DNA of 64,000 nt from Bryobacterales bacterium. GTDB taxonomy: Bacteria; Acidobacteriota; Terriglobia; Bryobacterales; UBA6623. The stretch is from the NCBI GenBank assembly GCA_026713545.1, contig JAPOOG010000006.1:1-64000 (forward strand), given 5' to 3'. Positions 13,814 to 24,379 of this stretch are shown here, piece after piece; position 1 is the stretch's first letter, and every line of letters starts with the position of its first letter. The position numbers and the translations under genes were made by a program. The notes under the pieces were generated by a model. It worked only from the letters and a program-made list of their open reading frames with translations, was not told where the DNA came from and did not search any database.

Positions 13814-14487
13814 TCAAACCAGCCCGCTGTCTGATAGGGGTGTCAGGATGTCCGGATCGTCGTTGCGGACGCTGTTCACGCGGGTACTGACGGCGCACCT
13901 CTCGAAGGGGCCGTCATAAGGTTCCCGCGCCAGCTCGAGCAACGCCGGCAGCGGCGTCCGCGGGTCGAGCCAGTTCGTGAACCAACGGGGATCGATGATC
14001 GCCGGCTGGCGATGGTGGAGGTCTTCGAGGCCTGGGGAGGCCTTCGTGGTGATGATGGTGAAGGTCTCCAGTGGCCCGTCGCCGGGATCCCAGCGCTCCC
14101 ATAGAGCGGCGAGCCGTCCTTCAAGGTCAGGTAATAAGGCCACTTGCCGCGGCCTGTTTGTTGCCACTCGAACCAGCCGTCGACCGGCAGCAGGCAGCGG
14201 CGTAACTGGAAGGCGGCACGGAACAACGGCTTGTAGTGGACGGACTCGGCGCGGGGATTGATCAGGCGGGAACCCGTCCTGGCGTCTCGCGCCCAGGGGG
14301 GCGCCAAACCCCAGCGCAGCCGGACGATTGCGCGGGTGCCGTGCTGCTCGACCCGGCAGGCGGTGAAGTCCTGCCCGGGCGCGCCGTTGTAGCGAGGTGG
14401 TCGATCAGGCGGCAGCGGTGTTGCCCTAACACCGTACAGGTTTCCAATCTGATCCGGAGACAGTTGCTGTGTGATCCTGCCGCACAT
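13814..14487 (-). pseudogene. SOS response-associated peptidase (SRAP/YedK/HMCES family), frameshifted
   Basis: SRAP proteins form a thiazolidine crosslink with abasic sites in single-stranded DNA through Cys2. The N-terminal part from ATG 14487 is typical: MCGRITQ with Cys2, RYNGAPGQ, a WGLAPPWA motif, LINPRAESV and the LLPVDGWFEW active-site segment. Near 14100-14115 the frame breaks after LKDGSPL; the family sequence resumes in another frame with ALWERWDPGDGPLETFTIIT and continues to STRVNSVRNDDPDIL. A few residues of the usual FAGLWERW motif are missing. It is either a recent pseudogene or carries a sequencing error. SRAP genes often sit in defence islands. Confidence 0.85.
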
Positions 14488-14661
14488 CGTCGTTTCCTCA
14501 AGCCAGTGGTCGCTCCCAACTGAAACCGCCATGTCGGTGCTGAGTTTGCGGTTCGGCTTTCCTGCCGGTCCTGTGGGGATTCTTTCCTGCACTGCCCGTC
14601 ATGCCTGAATTGTAAGCCCTCAGACTTGTTCGTTCTCCAGCGCCGTGGGGAGTAGTTCCGT

Positions 14662-15760: not shown

Positions 15761-16636
15761 TCACCGCTTGGAGGGCCAGCGAGTCCTCCTTAGGGTGAAC
15801 TCTTCTGGATCAAGCGAGATGTCGTCGGATTGGCTGTCTTCGTACTCGGTCCGCAACTCAATCTGGTCCGGGATCTTGAGCAGGGAAAGCGCAGCATTGT
15901 ACGAATGCAGCCTCACTGAATGTTCGAGAATTGTAGCACCTTCCCGGAGATTTGTCTCATACAGCCAGGCAGTAGCTGGTACTTGTTCAAAGCGATCAGG
16001 AACCTGCTCACCCCGAAATACGTCGTGGGCATAGGTCCGTTCGTCAAGCGCGCCCCGCAACACAGCTCGACGAAACTCCGTTGAAGAGCTGTACCACATC
16101 ACTTTCCCATCTCGACTCCACACGATCGCAACTCGGTGAGATGTGACTTCCGCGAGTCGAAATGCGGCGGCTGTCAGCGATACAGCGCATGCATCAGCGA
16201 TCGATCTTATAGCCTGAAAACTGGGCGATGCCGCTAAGTGTTCAGCGATGTGCGAAAACGGCATGAGGATCTCGGCCGCGAATCGATTAGCCTCGGTTTC
16301 TGCCACTTGCGATTCGCTATTCCTCCATCTTTCGATGTAGTCAGCAACGCACGGTGAAGCAAGGTCGATCTGATTGGGCAAGATGTAGTGGGCAAGTTCG
16401 TGACACAAAGTAAAGCGCCGCCTTGCCGCGCTACGGATGCGAGAATTGATCACGATTATGCCGATGTGGGCTCCCGGGAGTCTTAAGAGCGCACCATCGT
16501 ACGAATCCGCTTCGACTTCTTCGATCTCCAAGCCGAGTTCGGAGGCGATCTCGGGCAATCGATGCCTGCAGTCTTCGCCAAATTTCTCCAGGAATGCCTG
16601 TGCACAGGCTTCCACTAGCCTAAGATTCGGGTTCAT
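15761..16636 (-). CDS. ImmA/IrrE-family zinc metallopeptidase
   Basis: A 291-residue protein starting at ATG 16636 (MNPNLRLVEACAQ). The zinc motif HELAH lies near residue 97 in FTLCHELAHYILP, with the third ligand probably the glutamate of ETEANRFAAEILMP, the classic COG2856 layout. Such peptidases cleave repressors in phage, ICEs and defence systems after a stress signal (ImmA, IrrE, CapP). A C-terminal region of about 110 residues without recognised motifs may be the sensor. Its start overlaps the preceding 151-codon gene by 17 bp; that gene in turn follows a sigma-like gene. The three form a leftward operon facing the CBASS operon, so cleavage of one of the two upstream products is the likely job. 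Confidence 0.88.
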   Translation of the reverse strand: MNPNLRLVEACAQAFLEKFGEDCRHRLPEIASELGLEIEEVEADSYDGALLRLPGAHIGIIVINSRIRSAARRRFTLCHELAHYILPNQIDLASPCVADYIERWRNSESQVAETEANRFAAEILMPFSHIAEHLAASPSFQAIRSIADACAVSLTAAAFRLAEVTSHRVAIVWSRDGKVMWYSSSTEFRRAVLRGALDERTYAHDVFRGEQVPDRFEQVPATAWLYETNLREGATILEHSVRLHSYNAALSLLKIPDQIELRTEYEDSQSDDISLDPEEFTLRRTRWPSKR

Positions 16637-17075
16637 CCGATCTCTTAGCTCGCTCCTTGAGCTTGCTCTCAAGCTCATCCAACTTTGCCCGGTCCGATTC
16701 AGACACTGCGCCACTTTTCCTATAGGCCCGCGCGACCTTGAGGTCACTCGACGGCCAGACAGGCTTCCCAAGAGAACCTATCCAGCCCTTCATCTTGTCG
16801 ATCGCCTTTCTTTGGTCAGAGGGCAACTTCTCCAAAGGAGCCGTTGCTTCTCTGACCTGCTTCAGGTATTCGGGGGCGGGCTTGCCGGAGCGTCGGCAAG
16901 CCCGCGTCAGCTCCGAAGCTGCTTCGTGGAGCCGTATCCGCAGCTTTGCTGTGTCGAACCCCGCCGCTTCAAGATTGCCGCGGACGTCGTCGATGTCCAG
17001 ATCGTCATCAGGATGCAGCCGCCCCACGAGATCCCGAGTCTGCTTGAATATTTTTCTCACGTGATCCTCGGGCAT
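16620..17075 (-). CDS. Hypothetical helical protein between sigma-like and ImmA genes
   Basis: A 151-residue, highly charged, predicted all-helical protein without cysteines in a conserved pattern or membrane segments. It contains DDDLDIDDVRGNLEAAGFD near residues 23-41, a basic central part and a Glu/Lys/Arg-rich coiled-coil-like C-terminus (DELESKLKERAKR). I do not recognise a family. Position suggests it is the substrate, inhibitor or adaptor linking the sigma-like factor and the metallopeptidase. It lies 3 bp after the sigma-like gene and overlaps the peptidase gene. Confidence 0.6.
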   Translation of the reverse strand: MPEDHVRKIFKQTRDLVGRLHPDDDLDIDDVRGNLEAAGFDTAKLRIRLHEAASELTRACRRSGKPAPEYLKQVREATAPLEKLPSDQRKAIDKMKGWIGSLGKPVWPSSDLKVARAYRKSGAVSESDRAKLDELESKLKERAKRSDEPES

Positions 17076-17078
17076 GGA

Positions 17079-17702
17079 TCAATCCTCCTGTCTCGTACCG
17101 TGGATCCGGTGAAGCCGGCGCGATAGTCTCTTCTTTCGATTCTCGACTTCTGCGACCGAAATCCCAAACAGGCTAGCAAGATCTTGATTCGTAAACGCGT
17201 GGTAGCCTTCCGGGTCAAGCTGAACCATTAACATTTCCTGAATATCAGGATCGTCTTCCATACCAGCCAAAAGCTGTTCGCGTTGCTGTTGGCGTATTGC
17301 AAACCCCTCTGGGGTGTCGATCGCGGCGCAAAAATCGTCCAGGCTCATCTCGATGACTTCTTGCTCGTCCGGGCGGCTGGTGACGGTGGCGATCACAGTC
17401 GTTTTGTAGCGCTTTGACCTCTTCAAATCCAGGAAGTCATGGTGAAGCACGGTCTTCAAGAAACCCAGCAAGCTAGCTTGGCCGAGTTTCTTCTGCCCTG
17501 ACTTCCACCTTACTGTCATGTCGTCCGGGTCAAGAAATCGAGAAATAACGGTCATCGCTAGATCCTCTGGCCCGCTGCCGTCACCCGACAGAACCATTTG
17601 GTCGTCGCCCGTTGGGAACCATTGGAAGAGCGCGTTCGCGTGCATGGTCAGCCGCAACAACAGCTCTTCCATGTCGATTCCTGCTAGCGAGAGTTCAGCC
17701 AT
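17079..17702 (-). CDS. Sigma-70-like (ECF-type) transcription factor
   Basis: A 207-residue protein. Residues about 45-105 resemble sigma region 2: GPEDLAMTVISRFL, then SLLGFLKTVLHHDFLDLKRSK, the equivalent of the EDLxQ...FLxxWLxxIAxNxxxDxxR pattern. The C-terminal helices YHAFTNQDLASLFGISVAEV then ENRKKRLSRRL match the region 4 helix-turn-helix. Linker and length are larger than in minimal ECF factors. ATG 17702 is used; a GTG at 17708 is possible. It heads the leftward operon with the 151-aa protein and the ImmA-like peptidase, 172 bp from the first gene of the CBASS operon. It may direct RNA polymerase to that shared intergenic region; this is inference. Confidence 0.75.
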   Translation of the reverse strand: MAELSLAGIDMEELLLRLTMHANALFQWFPTGDDQMVLSGDGSGPEDLAMTVISRFLDPDDMTVRWKSGQKKLGQASLLGFLKTVLHHDFLDLKRSKRYKTTVIATVTSRPDEQEVIEMSLDDFCAAIDTPEGFAIRQQQREQLLAGMEDDPDIQEMLMVQLDPEGYHAFTNQDLASLFGISVAEVENRKKRLSRRLHRIHGTRQED

Positions 17703-17822
17703 GACCACGTTGTCTCAGGATCTACTAAGAAGTATATGCGCGTCAGCGGCACCTGATTTTCCGGGACTCAAAAAAGTTTTTTCGCCGAAATGGCAAAATA
17801 CTGCGTTCTAAATCGCTTTAGT

Positions 17823-17852
17823 GATACCCCCGAGATTCGTTCTGGGGGGATC
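17823..17852. promoter_or_regulatory. Stem-loop in the divergent sigma/CBASS region
   Basis: GATACCCCC and GGGGGGATC face each other around a 12-base loop; five G-C pairs and a three-pair GAT/ATC end are interrupted by one mismatch. It lies about 23 bp upstream of the DUF2188 start. It may be a protein-binding site or an RNA hairpin in the leader. An A6/T6 inverted stretch lies about 50 bp further upstream. Confidence 0.3.
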
Positions 17853-17874
17853 TAAGAGCAAGCGGTTCCGAACT

Positions 17875-18120
17875 ATGCCAAAGAAGAACGACAGATACGT
17901 CGTAAGAAACCCTGATGGTGGCTGGGCTGTCAAGGGACCAAGGAGTGGCCGCGCTAGCGATGTTTTCGACAGCCCGCGGTCGGAGGACAAAGCCGTTCAC
18001 GCGCCGATCATCAGGTCGGGCTCGCGCGAATTGAACAAGGCTGCCGCGAGCCTTACGCCAGACACATACGCTGTTCCCACAGTCGATACCGAAACCGAAC
18101 AAGGGAATGATTGTCGATGA
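17875..18120 (+). CDS. DUF2188-domain protein heading the CBASS operon
   Basis: An 81-residue protein from ATG 17875. The N-terminal MPKKNDRYVVRNPDGGWAVK matches DUF2188, with the following KGPRSGRASDVFDSP and EDKAV segments in family order. The second half departs from the family: the usual GGELVIHGRDG end is replaced by a polar tail. DUF2188 proteins are small and of unknown role. Its TGA overlaps the ATG of the TRIP13-like gene (ATGA at 18117-18120), so it is translationally coupled to the CBASS genes and probably belongs to them. Confidence 0.75.
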   Translation: MPKKNDRYVVRNPDGGWAVKGPRSGRASDVFDSPRSEDKAVHAPIIRSGSRELNKAAASLTPDTYAVPTVDTETEQGNDCR

Positions 18121-19040
18121 ACAATCACGCGATGCTGCAGAACAAGAACCAGAACGCGACAAAGGGCATTCAGCGCATACGCTGCCTGCCGGACCCGGGC
18201 CTGGGCGCCTTGTGGGAATCGATCATTCTCGATGTGGCCCTGAAGGAACAGCTTCTATCTCAGGCAGTTCTGAACTTCACCTTACGCACCAAGGTCGATC
18301 GCACTGTCCTTCCTCTGCATGGCGCGATCCTGCTCGTCGGTCCGCCCGGAACCGGCAAGACCTCTCTCGCACGCGGGCTCGCGCATCGAACGGCCGAATC
18401 GTTTCCGAATGGGAGCTTCCGCCTACTCGAGGTCGAACCGCATGCACTGACGAGTTCGGCCATGGGCAAGACCCAGCGCGCGGTGACAGATCTGTTCTCG
18501 CAGTCGATCGCGGAAGCTGCCGCTTGCGGCCCGACCATCGTGTTGCTGGACGAGGTCGAGACTTTGGCGGCCGACCGTTCGAAGATGAGTCTCGAGGCCA
18601 ATCCAGTCGATGTCCATCGCGCGACCGATGCGGTCTTGGTGCAACTCGACGCGTTGGCCGACGACCATCCGAACCTCCTGTTTCTTGCGACTAGCAACTT
18701 TCCCCAGGCCGTCGACTGCGCCTTCACCTCTCGATGTGACCTGGTAGTGAATGTGCCCCTTCCGGACAGTGAAGCCTGCGCCCGGATTCTTGAGGACTGC
18801 CTAGCTGGTCTCGGCAAGACGTTTCCGGAGATCTCTAAGCTCTCTTCCTCTCCTAAGTTCACAAGGTGTGCTGCCGAATGCATGGGGCTCGACGGGCGCG
18901 CGATCCGCAAGATGGTCGCGAGCGCGCTCGCCAGCAGCCCTCAGACCGCCATGAACCCAGAAACGGTTACGATCGACGACCTGCTCGCTGCGGCGCATGC
19001 TGCAAAGGTTGGACGCAGTATGAAAGGTGAAGCATCATGA
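18117..19040 (+). CDS. cap6: CBASS TRIP13/Pch2-like AAA+ ATPase (Cap6)
   Basis: A 307-residue AAA+ protein. Walker [10 protein letters not shown] is at about 75-83, Walker B IVLLDEVE at about 141-148, with sensor 1 LATSNFP and an arginine-finger region FTSRCDLVV after it. The closest known role is bacterial TRIP13 in type III CBASS, which disassembles the HORMA-CD-NTase complex and keeps the cyclase off until infection. The N-terminal ~50 residues should engage the HORMA substrate. ATG 18117 overlaps the upstream stop; its own stop overlaps the next start (ATGA). Context (two HORMA-like proteins, cyclase, effector) makes the assignment firm. Confidence 0.92.
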   Translation: MNNHAMLQNKNQNATKGIQRIRCLPDPGLGALWESIILDVALKEQLLSQAVLNFTLRTKVDRTVLPLHGAILLVGPPGTGKTSLARGLAHRTAESFPNGSFRLLEVEPHALTSSAMGKTQRAVTDLFSQSIAEAAACGPTIVLLDEVETLAADRSKMSLEANPVDVHRATDAVLVQLDALADDHPNLLFLATSNFPQAVDCAFTSRCDLVVNVPLPDSEACARILEDCLAGLGKTFPEISKLSSSPKFTRCAAECMGLDGRAIRKMVASALASSPQTAMNPETVTIDDLLAAAHAAKVGRSMKGEAS

Positions 19041-19513
19041 TCACGGTTGCGAGACGGACTTTCCGAAGCACACCCGTACGCGATGCCCTGGCGACTTGGA
19101 CAGAGATCGTGGATCTGCTAACCAGGATGACCGATGGGGCAGCACGCACGGAATTGCTAGCCGTGGCCGGTATTGCCGCGAGCGTCATCGCGGATCACGC
19201 ACCATGTGACTCACCGATTGTTGTGACCTGCAACGGGCCTCGGACACGCATCTACTGCCTCTATGACGATGATGCGATCAACGGCTCCGACGCCAACGAG
19301 GACCGGCTGGGTTTCGATCCTCTCAAAGGGGATTGGCGAGTATCGCTTCCCGCGCCGTCCGACGATCTGCCATGGGTCCAGACTGCGCTTAAGCGTCACA
19401 GCGACCGTATTACTGCACGCGATCTGGATACACCGGTCACGAAGGACCAATCTTCGAGCGCCGCAGGCGCGCAAACCCTCGTCCTGGACCCAAGGGGGTT
19501 TCTCGGAACATGA
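19037..19513 (+). CDS. Second HORMA-like protein of CBASS (bacHORMA_2 type, Cap8-like)
   Basis: A 158-residue protein coupled by ATGA overlaps at both ends. It lacks the THSV..V signature of the main bacterial HORMA proteins. Size, position next to the HORMA gene, and segments such as [20 protein letters not shown] and [16 protein letters not shown] fit the second HORMA class found in some type III CBASS operons. In those systems one HORMA binds a peptide closure motif and activates the cyclase; the other may sense or bridge. Assignment rests on context and overall resemblance more than on a diagnostic motif. Confidence 0.65.
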
Positions 19514-20010
19514 CCACCGTCACTGTCAATACCTACACGCACTCGGTCACCTATGTGGCGGACAACATCCTGAAGAGTATTAAGGACCTCATTCGCCTCA
19601 GCGGCCTTGATCCGACTCACCTAGTCGAGAGCTGGGAGAGTAAGATGCGGGCGATTCGGACTTGGCTCCACTCTGGACACCTCGAAACCGTGGTCCTTGA
19701 GATCTTTGATCCAAGGACGGACGCACTCGTCGGCCGCTGGGATATAGATGTGATCTATACCACGGGCCTGGGAGACGGCGGCTTCTGGACCGATACCGAA
19801 CAAATCAAGTACCACATCCGCAAGGCGGGTCTTGCCCCCGCCGAAGCCAGATATCGGCTCGTACTCCAGAACAGGTCCGGGCGCCCCGACGTTGACGGAT
19901 GGGAACCAACGCGATTTCGGTCAACCGAAGGTTTTATCCGCCATAGCCTCGGCTCAACGATTGAGCATTATGGTTTAGGAGCGAGTGCAGCCTACTGGAG
20001 ACAAGTCTGA
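19510..20010 (+). CDS. cap7: Bacterial HORMA-domain protein of CBASS (Cap7)
   Basis: A 166-residue protein with the bacterial HORMA opening [20 protein letters not shown], followed by RLSGLDP and the safety-belt part with [15 protein letters not shown] near the C-terminus. In type III CBASS this protein senses phage peptides, closes around them and binds the CD-NTase to switch on second-messenger synthesis; the TRIP13-like ATPase reopens it. It overlaps the upstream gene by 4 bp and the cyclase gene by 1 bp (TGATG), which fixes its start and stoichiometric translation. Confidence 0.9.
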
Positions 20011-20909
20011 TGCTGACCGTCAACAAGGCCTTCCGCAAGTTCAGGAGCCGACTGGAGCTGAATGAAAGGGAGCAGAAAAATGCGTCCGCACGCCATACCG
20101 AAGTCCGTGACTTTCTCAATACCAAGTTCGAGATTGCCCGCAGTTTCCTGACTGGGTCCTATGCCCGCTACACGAAGACCAAGCCGCTCAAGGACATCGA
20201 CATCTTCTTCGATCTGAAAGAGGCCGAAAGGCGATACCGATCGAAAGCTCCGTCGATCGTAATCGGCGACTTCCATGACTCTCTGGTCGAGAAATACGGC
20301 AACAACGCAGTCCGCAAGCAGAGCCGTTCGGTCGGTGTTGATTTCGGTGTTGTCGTCGATGCCGACGACAACACCGACTATCGCGTAGTCAGCATCGACG
20401 TCGTGCCGTCCTTCGCAGTCGGCGACGATTATGAGATCCCAGACGATGACAGTGGGCGGTGGATCAAGACCAATCCCAAGATCCACGCCAGCAAGGCCAC
20501 GGCGGCGCACCAAGCATTCTCGAATGAGTGGAAAGGCTTGGTGCGGATGGCAAAATACTGGAACAACAACGCCCGCCATGGGGAAAAGCCGGTCAAGCCT
20601 TCGTTCCTAATCGAGGTTATGGCCCTTCAGTGCCTCTACGGCGGATGGCAGGGACGCTTCGACTATGAAATCCAGGGGTTCTTTTCGACCTTGGCCGATC
20701 GCATGTTCGACGAATGGCCCGACCCCGCGGGCCTCGGACCTGCGATCAGCAACGGTATGGATGCGTCCCGCAAGCGGCGTGCGTGCGAACTCCTGGCAGT
20801 TGCCAGCAGCGAGGCAACCATTGCAATCGACCATGCGCGTCGCGGCCGCAATGGCGAGTCGCTCAGAGCGTGGCGGGCGTTGTTCGGACCAAAATTCCCG
20901 CTTTCTTAA
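20010..20909 (+). CDS. CBASS CD-NTase (cyclic oligonucleotide synthase)
   Basis: A 299-residue nucleotidyltransferase. The catalytic motif is intact: [20 protein letters not shown] gives G49-S50 and metal-binding D62 and D64; the third carboxylate is D130 in [10 protein letters not shown]. After activation by HORMA it makes a cyclic di- or trinucleotide that triggers the downstream effector. Helices from about 185 ([26 protein letters not shown]) match the helical C-lobe. The TRIP13/HORMA context is that of clade C/D enzymes, but the clade cannot be set by eye. Product specificity is unknown; the SAVED effector suggests a cyclic trinucleotide. Confidence 0.93.
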
Positions 20910-20948: not shown

Positions 20949-22466
20949 ATGGCTGATGCGGTCGTGGCTCGCTGGCATGGCGATAACTATCAGGCACGGG
21001 TGTTTTGGGAGAACGCCCTAAATCTTCTGTTACCGAACTCCTGCGTCGTCGAAGTAACGTTCGAGGCAGACGGCCCCAAGGCGTTCGACGATGTGATCGT
21101 CAAGTACGCCCCCCCAGTTGCGCGTTCCGGGCAGGACCGGGTCTCGGCCGAATATCATCAGATCAAATGGCACGTCGAGACGGGCGGACGGTTTGGTTAT
21201 GAGAACTTCACCGAGCCGAGCTTCATCGGCGCCCAATCCTTCTCCTTGCTCGAACGCCTCCAGCAGGCGCGTCGGGCAGCTCCAGCATCGGCGCAGTTCA
21301 CGTTTCTCACCACCTATCGGGCAAAAGATGGCGACCCTCTGTCCTTGCTGATATCTGGCAATGACAACACACTCCTCGTTGAACGCCTGTTCGACGGCAC
21401 GACCGACCGCAGTCGCATGGGAAAGGTACGGAAGTGTTGGCGGGAGCACCTTAATCTCGAAGATGACGAGCAGCTTCGATCGATCGTGCGTAGCCTCCGC
21501 GTCGTCGACGGCCATCGGTCGCTGCAGGAATTGCGCGAGCAGATAAACATCAAGGCGGAGGCTGTAGGCGTTCTTACATGTAGTGCTGCTGACTCAGACT
21601 TCCGATATGACGAATTGGCGCGGCAACTGAAGGTGCGCAAGCTGAACGCTCTCAACCGTCAAGCGCTCTTGCAATTCTGCGAGGAAGAAGGGCTTCTCGT
21701 GGACCGGCCCACAGAATACGACTGCTTCCTTCCAATCGCTGTTCGCAGTTTTCTTGGGCCAGCAGCCGATATCGTTGGTGCGGCACCAGAAGACACGCTA
21801 CTGCTCACCGACGACTTTCGACAGCGTTACCTACAGGAAGGACGTGAATGGCAGCGTAACATCCGCCCAAAGGTTGAGAGTTTTCTCCGAGCGATGATAA
21901 AGAAATCAGCAAAGTTGCGGCTGATACTAGATGCGCATGCATCGATCGCATTCCTCGCGGGGACAGTGATCCACCTAAAGTCCGGTATAGAGACGCAACT
22001 GGTCCAAAAGGGTCGTGTCGGCACGAGAACCTGGCACGTCGACGATGGCTCGGGCGTGAAGGGCGGCTATTTCGAAATTGAGGAGGACCAGCCGGGAGAA
22101 GGGCGTGGAATTGCGATTGCAATCAATGCATCACAGGCGACCACTGCGCAGGCTCGCGCATATGTGGCAGCTCAGGTACCGAGTGTGGGCAAGTTCGTCT
22201 CATGCGCGATGCCAACGGGACCTGGGCAGCAAAGTGTCAAGGGCGGGCAGCACGCCGCCGCGCTCGCCGAACAGATTTCCAATTATGTGCGAGCGATGAA
22301 GGAAGATGATCCCGATGCAGTCATCCACATTTTTGCGGCAGCTCCGAATGGCCTACTCTTCTATCTCGGACAGCATCATCAGGCGATGGCACCGTGCATC
22401 GTGTATGAGTTTGATTTTGATCGGCGCGGGAACAAGACATATCAACCCTCGTTCACTGTCGATTAA
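20949..22466 (+). CDS. cap4: CBASS effector Cap4: DUF4297 nuclease-SAVED
   Basis: A 505-residue effector. The N-terminal ~200 residues form a DUF4297 restriction-type nuclease: FDDVIV (D47/D48) and EYHQIKW (Q71-I-K73) supply the D...(E/Q)xK centre. The C-terminal part (about 330-500) is a SAVED ligand-binding domain, recognisable from LAGTVIHLKSGIE and HIFAAAPNGLLFYLGQHHQA, ending in VYEFDFD. Cap4 oligomerises on binding a cyclic oligonucleotide and degrades DNA indiscriminately, killing or arresting the infected cell. It starts 39 bp after the cyclase stop, the only gap in the operon, and is the last gene. No frameshift; likely functional. Confidence 0.92.
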   Translation: MADAVVARWHGDNYQARVFWENALNLLLPNSCVVEVTFEADGPKAFDDVIVKYAPPVARSGQDRVSAEYHQIKWHVETGGRFGYENFTEPSFIGAQSFSLLERLQQARRAAPASAQFTFLTTYRAKDGDPLSLLISGNDNTLLVERLFDGTTDRSRMGKVRKCWREHLNLEDDEQLRSIVRSLRVVDGHRSLQELREQINIKAEAVGVLTCSAADSDFRYDELARQLKVRKLNALNRQALLQFCEEEGLLVDRPTEYDCFLPIAVRSFLGPAADIVGAAPEDTLLLTDDFRQRYLQEGREWQRNIRPKVESFLRAMIKKSAKLRLILDAHASIAFLAGTVIHLKSGIETQLVQKGRVGTRTWHVDDGSGVKGGYFEIEEDQPGEGRGIAIAINASQATTAQARAYVAAQVPSVGKFVSCAMPTGPGQQSVKGGQHAAALAEQISNYVRAMKEDDPDAVIHIFAAAPNGLLFYLGQHHQAMAPCIVYEFDFDRRGNKTYQPSFTVD

Positions 22467-22720: not shown

Positions 22721-22832
22721 CATCGTTGCCCCCCCCACCCCACGATCCGCTCCTTGAGCGATCCCTTTCTGGAACGCTAACTATATCGGTGATACAATCG
22801 TCAATCTGAATGTTTCAGGAGGTATGTGCAAC

Positions 22833-23450
22833 ATGCGGATCGGCTACGCCCGCGTCTCCACCGTTGACCAGAATCCCGAGCTGCAGATCGACGCTCTCAA
22901 GGACGCCGGCTGCGAGCGCATCTACACCGAGCACGTAGGCGGAAACGCCCGCAAGCGCCCCGAGTTCGACCGCCTCTTCGAGTCGCTCCGCGCCGGCGAC
23001 ACCCTCGTCGTCTGGCGCTTCGACCGGCTCGGCCGCAGCGTTTCCCACGTCGTCAACCTCGTCGAGCGCCTTCGAGCCCTCGAAGTCGAGCTTCTCAGCC
23101 TCACCGAAGGCATCGACACCCGAAGCCCCATCGGCGAAGCCGTGTTCACCATCATCGCCGCCTTCGCTCAAATGGAGCGCCAGCTCATGTCCGAGCGCAG
23201 CCGCGCCGGCATCGCCTCGCACCGCAAAAACGGCAACCGCTGGGGCGCCTCGTCGAAGTTTCACGACCCGGAGAACGTCGAGCTCGCCCGCTCGCTGCTC
23301 CGCGAAGGCACTCTGTCAAAATCCAAGATCGCACGGCGCATCGGCGTCCATCCCGTCACCCTCTATCGATGGTTCCCCGGTGGGGAGGCCGACAACTTCC
23401 TTCCCACCCCCACCTTCCATCGCCGACAGAAGCAGCGAGCGAACCGATGA
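22833..23450 (+). CDS. Small serine recombinase (resolvase/invertase type)
   Basis: A 205-residue recombinase: MRIGYARVSTVDQNPELQID with catalytic Ser9 in ARVS, then FDRLGRSVSH and AFAQMERQLMSERSRAGI (the E helix), and a C-terminal Hin-type helix-turn-helix (SKSKIARRIGVHPVTLYRW). It catalyses site-specific exchange between short sites through a 5'-phosphoserine. ATG 22833 is chosen because AGGAGG at 22817-22822 is 10 bp upstream; the ATG at 22824 is too close to it. Its stop overlaps the next start (ATGA at 23447-23450), coupling it to the tyrosine recombinase. Confidence 0.92.
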   Translation: MRIGYARVSTVDQNPELQIDALKDAGCERIYTEHVGGNARKRPEFDRLFESLRAGDTLVVWRFDRLGRSVSHVVNLVERLRALEVELLSLTEGIDTRSPIGEAVFTIIAAFAQMERQLMSERSRAGIASHRKNGNRWGASSKFHDPENVELARSLLREGTLSKSKIARRIGVHPVTLYRWFPGGEADNFLPTPTFHRRQKQRANR

Positions 23451-24379
23451 AGCTGACCGAGGCGACCGATACCTACATCAAAGAGCTTCAGCGGCGCAAC
23501 TTTGTGAACAGCACCATCGCGAACTACCGCTCACTGTTTCGGTTATGGATTGCCTTCGGACGTAGCCACTGTCTCACCAATCTTTCCGACTACAACCAGG
23601 TCATCATCCGCAATTTTCTCGATAGCTGGCACGTTCAACCTAGCACCGCTAAGACCCGCTACAAAATGCTCCGCGCTTTCTTCGTCTTCGCCACCGACAT
23701 GGACTGGATCAATCAATCACCCATGGCGAAGCTCAAACCGCCGAAGGTCACTCAAATACCCACCCCGCCGCTTACCCGCGAAGAGTTTCAATCGCTCGCT
23801 CTCGCGGCCGAGAACCTGCCCGGTGAGCGTGCCCTGATCTTTCTCATGCGCTACTCCGGACTCTCTATCGGCGACGCCGTAGGCTGCCGCATGGACGCCA
23901 TCAACGGCGACACCCTGACCCTTCATCGCACCAAAACAGGCGAGCTCGTCGTTGTTCCGCTGCCCGACCTGGTGCTCGACTCGCTCCGCGAGATCGAAGG
24001 CGTCTTCGGAACCGACCACTACTTCTGGTCAGGCACCATTCTTCGGGTTTCCGCCACGAAACAGTGGCGCATGAAGCTGCAGCACGTAGGCCGCATAGCC
24101 GGTTTGCAGAACTTCCGGCCGCACCAGCTCAGAGACACCTTCGCTGTCGAGTTCCTGATCGCCAGCAGATCCATAGAGGATTTAAGCGCACTTCTGGGCC
24201 ACAGCAGCGTCATCACCACCGAACTCTACTACGCGCCGTGGGTCATGGCGCGTAGGGATCGACTTATACGCATCGTAAAGGAGGTTAACGATTCTGACTC
24301 CATGCTCCGGTTTCTGACCGAACGCATGCGGAAAAAGAAAGCGGGAGCCGGTGACAACGGCTCCCGCTTTCATGTCTGA
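23447..24379 (+). CDS. Tyrosine recombinase (phage integrase family)
   Basis: A 310-residue integrase. The N-terminal SAM-like core-binding domain spans about 1-95. The catalytic domain shows all expected residues: Arg in LMRYSGLSIGD, Lys in RTKTGE, HxxR in RPHQLRDTF, His in LLGHSSV and Tyr in TELYYAPW. It catalyses insertion, excision or inversion of the neighbouring element. ATG 23447 overlaps the serine recombinase stop. A perfect terminator hairpin overlaps its last codons. Pairing of a serine and a tyrosine recombinase in one transcript at the edge of the defence region suggests the integration module of the island. Confidence 0.92.
   Translation: MKLTEATDTYIKELQRRNFVNSTIANYRSLFRLWIAFGRSHCLTNLSDYNQVIIRNFLDSWHVQPSTAKTRYKMLRAFFVFATDMDWINQSPMAKLKPPKVTQIPTPPLTREEFQSLALAAENLPGERALIFLMRYSGLSIGDAVGCRMDAINGDTLTLHRTKTGELVVVPLPDLVLDSLREIEGVFGTDHYFWSGTILRVSATKQWRMKLQHVGRIAGLQNFRPHQLRDTFAVEFLIASRSIEDLSALLGHSSVITTELYYAPWVMARRDRLIRIVKEVNDSDSMLRFLTERMRKKKAGAGDNGSRFHV
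24338..24370 (+). terminator. Perfect terminator hairpin at the integrase 3' end
   Basis: AAAGCGGGAGCCG, loop GTGACAA, CGGCTCCCGCTTT: a 13-bp perfect stem with a GC-rich core and A/T ends, overlapping the last codons and ending 10 bp before the end of the stop codon. A and T tracts on both sides allow termination in both directions. Confidence 0.75.

Follow-up and report, generated by a model that had tools for sequence, protein, structure and literature searches.

Among the closest described systems is the CapH/CapP pair, in which single-stranded DNA (ssDNA) activates the peptidase CapP, which then cuts the repressor CapH (PMC13373217). Further small regulators that respond to ssDNA are CapK+CapS and CapW/BrxR, whose genes adjoin CBASS, Bub and other immune operons (PMC13373217), and IrrE/PprI-DdrO and ImmA-ImmR are regulators built on a stress-activated M78 metallopeptidase. 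Two CRISPR systems offer a different layout. In type III-E CRISPR, the protease Craspase (Cas7-11/Csx29), the sigma inhibitor Csx30 and the ECF factor CASP-sigma act together such that the protease frees the sigma factor, and the freed CASP-sigma, which has sites within its own locus, transcribes defence genes (PMC10028731). CalpL, CalpT and CalpS of type III CRISPR are likewise a protease, an anti-sigma factor and an ECF sigma factor (PMC11417357).

A comparison of these systems with the locus analysed here, which lies in a 64-kb stretch of DNA (the window), shows features shared with both groups. Like CapH+CapP, it has a full-length CapP homologue and is divergent from an immune operon, and DUF2188-like genes face CapH/CapP cassettes too (L056, L058). 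In contrast to that pair, it lacks the HTH repressor CapH and carries a sigma factor and a middle protein instead, and the control proposed for it is positive, not negative. Classing the cassette as CapH/CapP was ruled out by the lack of CapH in the sigma-type loci. CapK+CapS and CapW/BrxR differ in being repressors with kinase/STAS or WYL domains, without a protease or a sigma factor, while IrrE/PprI-DdrO and ImmA-ImmR remove HTH repressors and have no sigma factor partner. The cassette shares the layout of protease, sigma inhibitor (here a candidate) and ECF sigma factor with both CRISPR systems. The window protease is of the M78 type, whereas Craspase has a CHAT caspase-like protease, a target-RNA trigger and CRISPR-gene clients, and CalpL is a SAVED-Lon protease triggered by cA4.

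Three close-set genes on the minus strand of the window, from 17708 to 15761, point away from a CBASS operon on the plus strand. The features of the locus are as follows.

15761..16636, minus strand: CapP metallopeptidase (M78/IrrE family) with a HELAH motif, 291 aa
16620..17075, minus strand: middle protein of 151 aa, predicted all-helical; candidate anti-sigma factor and putative CapP substrate
17079..17708, minus strand: predicted divergent ECF-type sigma factor, 209 aa, with a GTG start and an ATG at 17702
17780..17798, no strand assigned: mirrored core TTTCGCCGAAATGGCAAAA, proposed back-to-back −35 elements of two divergent operons
17791..17818, plus strand: proposed sigma promoter of the CBASS operon (TGGC, 19 nt, CGCTTT region), with the spacing found in relatives
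17875..18120, plus strand: DUF2188 small protein, gene 1 of the CBASS operon (Pfam PF09954, 9.5e-5; PADLOC PDC-S16)
18117..19040, plus strand: TRIP13-type AAA ATPase of CBASS (PADLOC TRIP13, 2.1e-147)
19037..19513, plus strand: HORMA protein 1 (PADLOC HORMA, 2.7e-72)
19510..20010, plus strand: HORMA protein 2 (Pfam bacHORMA_2, 2.1e-81)
20010..20909, plus strand: CD-NTase (PADLOC Cyclase, 3.1e-142; NCBIfam CBASS_cyclase_b above its cut-off)
20949..22466, plus strand: PDDEXK-SAVED nuclease effector (PADLOC effector endonuclease, 9.2e-203; Pfam SAVED, 6.1e-32)

The sigma gene is separated from the 151-aa gene by 3 nt, the 151-aa gene overlaps the peptidase gene by 17 nt, and the region between cassette and CBASS operon spans 17709-17874. 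All three open reading frames were found on the minus strand, and the coordinates given in a preliminary description of this DNA are correct. The list of open reading frames has the peptidase at 336 aa, not 291 aa, because of an upstream TTG. With CD-NTase, HORMA, TRIP13 and effector genes all present, the operon opposite the cassette is a full type III CBASS. Immediately next to it (22824-24379) are resolvase-like and tyrosine recombinase genes, suggestive of a mobile island. On the other side of the cassette, what we take to be an SRAP/YedK-like gene (13814-14592, minus strand) is apparently frameshifted. A DUF2188-type small protein is found in operons facing both kinds of CapP cassette, often as gene 1 (the window, L056, L058, L157 and L158).

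The identity of the peptidase is clear. It matches the PADLOC capP model (PDLC04141) at E 3.2e-55 over positions 6-240 of 242, the solved CapP structure PDB 7t5t at 1.7e-18 over residues 59-282, and Pfam Peptidase_M78 at 5.9e-17; the full-length CapP match takes in the C-terminal domain. Its HELAH motif lies at residues 79-83, and neither the metal-binding residues H79, H83 and E113 nor the catalytic E80 varies in an alignment of 19 relatives. The product of 15761-16636 is thus CapP, with the M78/IrrE fold, HEXXH motif and third glutamate. No match to CapH, an XRE-type HTH repressor, was found near the window CapP, where the sigma and middle genes stand instead. Profiles and fold bear out the earlier proposal that an ImmA-type peptidase is paired here with a sigma-like factor and a helical protein in place of the HTH protein CapH.

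The sigma-like protein is more divergent. Alone, the 209-aa protein gives a weak match to the sigma70-ECF family (TIGR02937, 1.9e-4) whose 21.1 bits fall below the curated cut-off of 42.9. Single-sequence searches with it found no match in genome contigs, plasmids or 200 relatives, so the relatives of the cassette were found by anchoring on CapP. Nine of 21 members of the resulting family match sigma70-ECF (best 1.5e-7), and several match Pfam Sigma70_r2 and r4_2. A profile of 34 members matches ECF sigma factors in the PDB from sigma2 to sigma4 (3mzy, 5.4e-8), as well as RpoE-NepR (3e-6), SigH (1.3e-5) and AlgU (2.6e-5). The AlphaFold2 model of the 209-aa protein has a sigma2-linker-sigma4 layout without sigma3. 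Nearly all top Foldseek matches to this model are sigma factors; none reached E 0.001 and TM-scores were low, as is expected if the sigma2 and sigma4 domains sit differently. Many family members keep an (E/D)DLV(S/Q)-type motif at what is presumably the position where ECF factors bind the RNA polymerase core. Taken together with its relatives, the family profile and predicted fold firmly indicate a divergent ECF-type sigma factor, and the protein is very likely a working one.

Homologues of CapP were gathered from 396 Acidobacteriota genomes and from species genomes of all phyla. Wherever a partner could be identified among those fetched, it was either CapH or a sigma factor with a protein of about 130-150 aa, never both. 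On a tree of CapP each kind tends to group with its own, with 7 label changes in all as against 28.8 when labels are shuffled. Searches with a profile of the middle protein alone recovered 13 complete cassettes in 395 Bacteroidota genomes, 18 in 399 genomes of the window's class and 7 in 369 genomes of the Myxococcota group. Sigma, middle and CapP genes stand in this order and on one strand in all 38 of these, a count that leaves out L164 and L208 (weak matches), L212 (a contig end cuts the locus) and two matches at E 5e-4 and 7e-4. L164 and L208 were rejected as low-scoring false matches. With 21 CapP-selected cassettes and three plasmid loci the total reaches 62, all constant in order and strand; these are not 62 independent events, because some are near-copies. 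The arrangement is not due to chance. Members of Acidobacteriota, Bacteroidota and Myxococcota carry it, among them the cultured strains Pontibacter actiniarum DSM 19842 and Spirosoma linguale DSM 74.

Several loci depart from this plan. The sigma and middle genes of L206 (7228-8370) are fused into one 380-aa open reading frame and the sigma gene of L192 is split over two frames, which may reflect indels, assembly errors or, for the former, real fusion. On a Chryseobacterium plasmid (L178, 3838-5654), a gene that NCBI assigns to the sigma-70 family stands with genes for an unrelated protein of 116 aa and for CapP, facing a Pycsar operon; here and in L180 (2882-4615), the short middle protein that accompanies the sigma-like factor and CapP is of another kind, with a DVDSIVNG-like stretch common to both loci. 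In two Bacillota loci (L054, L055), inspection by eye showed DUF4258/RelE-like and MqsA-type zinc-ribbon genes ahead of CapP instead of CapH or a sigma gene, a possible third type of CapP partner. Two plasmids, one from E. coli (L175) and one from Pontibacter (L176), have umuD near a CapP cassette, and the second has a gene for a Y-family polymerase there too, which fits a link to DNA damage.

The middle protein is the least familiar of the three. The 151-aa protein is predicted to be all-helical (mean pLDDT 79), and searches with it and its family returned no family match, no convincing PDB sequence match and no PDB fold match. Neither sequence nor fold search revealed a recognised anti-sigma domain or fold. 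For the comparison with Csx30, the sequence search of the family against PDB chains detected no likeness to any of them, and the 33-kDa CalpT went unmatched in the middle-protein searches made here. Family members have in common a C-terminal F-R-N-x3-L-like stretch. A second copy, truncated and on the opposite strand, lies downstream of CapP in L046 (10403-10681).

What marks the middle protein is its position. In the relatives its gene always lies between the sigma and CapP genes and usually overlaps the latter, and a sigma factor is co-encoded in every one of the 38 complete loci that the middle-protein search recovered by itself. Since it is always encoded between sigma factor and CapP, and CapH is replaced, an anti-sigma factor that serves as CapP substrate is the simplest reading of the small protein. 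It probably inhibits the sigma factor, and there is a reasonable likelihood that CapP cuts it. We favour, with moderate confidence, a model in which the cassette is a regulator of immune operons that combines CapP with a dedicated ECF-type sigma factor in place of CapH and relies on cleavage of a 151-aa anti-sigma factor. At rest, the sigma factor would be held inactive by the 151-aa protein. A build-up of ssDNA during phage infection or DNA damage would activate CapP, as carried over from CapH/CapP, and the activated peptidase would cleave the 151-aa protein and free the sigma factor. The latter would then bring RNA polymerase to a back-to-back promoter pair in the region that separates the two operons, turning on the CBASS operon and raising expression of its own cassette.

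The small protein could also serve CapP rather than the sigma factor. It would then be an adaptor or partner of the peptidase, such as a sensor or pseudo-substrate, and CapP would act on a genuine sigma factor itself to shape or end the response. The lack of an anti-sigma fold fits this alternative, as does a middle gene that always adjoins, and usually overlaps, the CapP gene. The middle and sigma genes are coupled just as tightly, however, and if the sigma factor were freely active and activated its own expression, something would have to restrain it; in both CRISPR precedents it is the inhibitor that is cut (PMC10028731, PMC11417357). We consider this arrangement unlikely compared with the release of a sigma factor from a cleaved anti-sigma.

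Release of a sigma factor calls for promoters that it could read, and the intergenic regions of sigma cassettes carry mirror-image arms. A dyad test gave p<=0.05 in 12 of 34 sigma-cassette loci as against 2 of 21 CapH cassettes, and in the first set, with a fixed inner core, arms within one locus matched better than arms across loci (permutation p 5e-5). Automatic mirror-arm tests in held-out loci were not significant, either with the fixed inner core (p 0.95) or with motif-free arms (p 0.11), because the inner arms of a −35/−10 form at spacing 19 need not be palindromic. That form consists of a −35 element TG(G/T)C, 19 nt and a −10 element GCAT (TGKC-N19-GCAT). Settled with both the first and the held-out sets in view, it has 24 matches in 48 sigma-cassette regions vs 0.9 expected, as computed from the remainder of the same loci. 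Thirteen matches point toward the facing operon and 11 toward the cassette, with both directions in seven loci. Other spacings of TGKC and GCAT yield 0-3 matches per set, and the CapH cassettes have none at spacing 19. The form is clear in Bacteroidota and Acidobacteriota relatives and absent from seven Myxococcota loci fetched after it was fixed, so it belongs to part of the cassette family. A version of the motif has just two occurrences in one genome, and these are the mirrored arms at its cassette locus. The intergenic regions of many relatives thus carry promoters of ECF geometry, often mirrored.

The window itself matches this form in part. The mirrored core TTTCGCCGAAATGGCAAAA is common to the window and its nearest relative (L045). 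Nothing else in the 64 kb matches in this way, and shuffling reproduces such a core in 11 of 5000 cases. TGGC is followed, 19 nt on, by CGCT rather than GCAT, and the −10 elements are not clearly mirrored; the promoter of the window, and its use by the sigma factor, are for this reason a proposal. No sigma70-like promoter was found at 17600-18000 of the window. Across the loci such promoters are present in 12 of 21 CapH cassettes vs 3.8 expected, as against 7 of 31 sigma cassettes vs 12.1 expected. It is likely that the sigma factor transcribes the facing operon.

These elements also bear on whether the sigma-like protein might have no RNA polymerase activity and be a DNA-binding repressor that has taken the place of CapH, to be lifted by CapP. 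Its divergence from known sigma factors would suit such a role, and a repressor dimer could also bind mirrored sites. Yet both sigma domains and the core-binding-like motif are retained, paired elements at a fixed 19-nt spacing resemble −35 and −10 boxes, and enrichment of sigma70-like promoters is a property of CapH cassettes, not of sigma cassettes. A repressor is accordingly improbable next to an ECF-type sigma factor that is freed by proteolysis.

The operons faced by the cassettes show what such a sigma factor would control. Flanks were inspected for 55 cassettes. CBASS lies opposite 10 of them (the window, L033, L036, L039, L057, L075, L082, L155, L163 and L203), and opposite another 23 are ubiquitin-like operons with ThiF/E1, multiubiquitin, E2, JAB or DUF6791 genes; a few of these assignments have one family match or a near-copy as their sole basis. 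At least 33 of the 55 therefore face an immune operon of one of these two kinds, and about 40% face genes unrecognised as immune. The preliminary description had asked whether the three-gene cassette recurs beside CBASS or other defence operons; its 62 occurrences and this tally answer that it does, and speak against a cassette found chiefly at a distance from defence genes. L078 and L082 are 90% identical over a stretch that runs from the start codon of the facing operon to the end of the cassette. Beyond this near-identical stretch of cassette and intergenic region, L078 has an E2-E1-JAB operon and L082 has CBASS, the switch falling exactly at the start codon. This exchange indicates that cassette and promoter behave as a single exchangeable unit. 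In six Bacteroidota loci (L065, L072, L151, L060, L078, L082) the nearest facing genes encode proteins of just 44-57 aa that resemble zinc ribbons or small membrane proteins, and in L159 the cassette faces a Mu/Tn7-like transposase gene.

That the cassette is a passenger, a toxin-antitoxin-like module or phage-type ImmA cassette beside CBASS that does not regulate it, is very improbable: ImmA/IrrE peptidases are present in many mobile elements, and integrase and resolvase genes adjoin the window CBASS, but divergent placement is repeated before different immune operons with promoter elements in common, and in L078 and L082 nearly the same cassette and promoter precede different immune operons, the exchange having its border precisely at the start codon.

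The computation supports the identity of CapP and of the sigma factor, the fixed three-gene unit, its recurrence before immune operons and, for many relatives, promoters with ECF geometry. On balance, the cassette would seem to be the first positive immune-operon controller based on CapP, in which a protease activated by DNA damage frees an ECF sigma factor; its clients would be CBASS, ubiquitin-like and possibly Pycsar operons, and its mirrored promoter would move with it between unrelated immune operons. The control logic, which the preliminary description had put forward as new for CBASS, would be so for CBASS and for CapP; it would not be new in kind, as two CRISPR systems precede it (PMC10028731, PMC11417357). 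No description of a sigma factor paired with CapP was found in the open-access literature searched. The parts are of known kinds, and their combination, their clients and the exchangeable mirrored promoter are undescribed in the literature so covered.

Because immune operons of the CBASS and ubiquitin-like kinds can burden or even kill the cell that carries them, it matters how they are kept off and switched on. To our knowledge, the DNA-damage regulators described so far (CapW, CapH/CapP and CapK/CapS) are repressors that get lifted. This cassette points to the opposite design, in which a dedicated sigma factor is to be freed, the ssDNA-sensing protease is of the same kind, and positive feedback is built in. 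If true, the control of CBASS would be tied to the protease/anti-sigma/sigma logic of type III CRISPR, and the promoter model makes the cassette directly testable in reporters.
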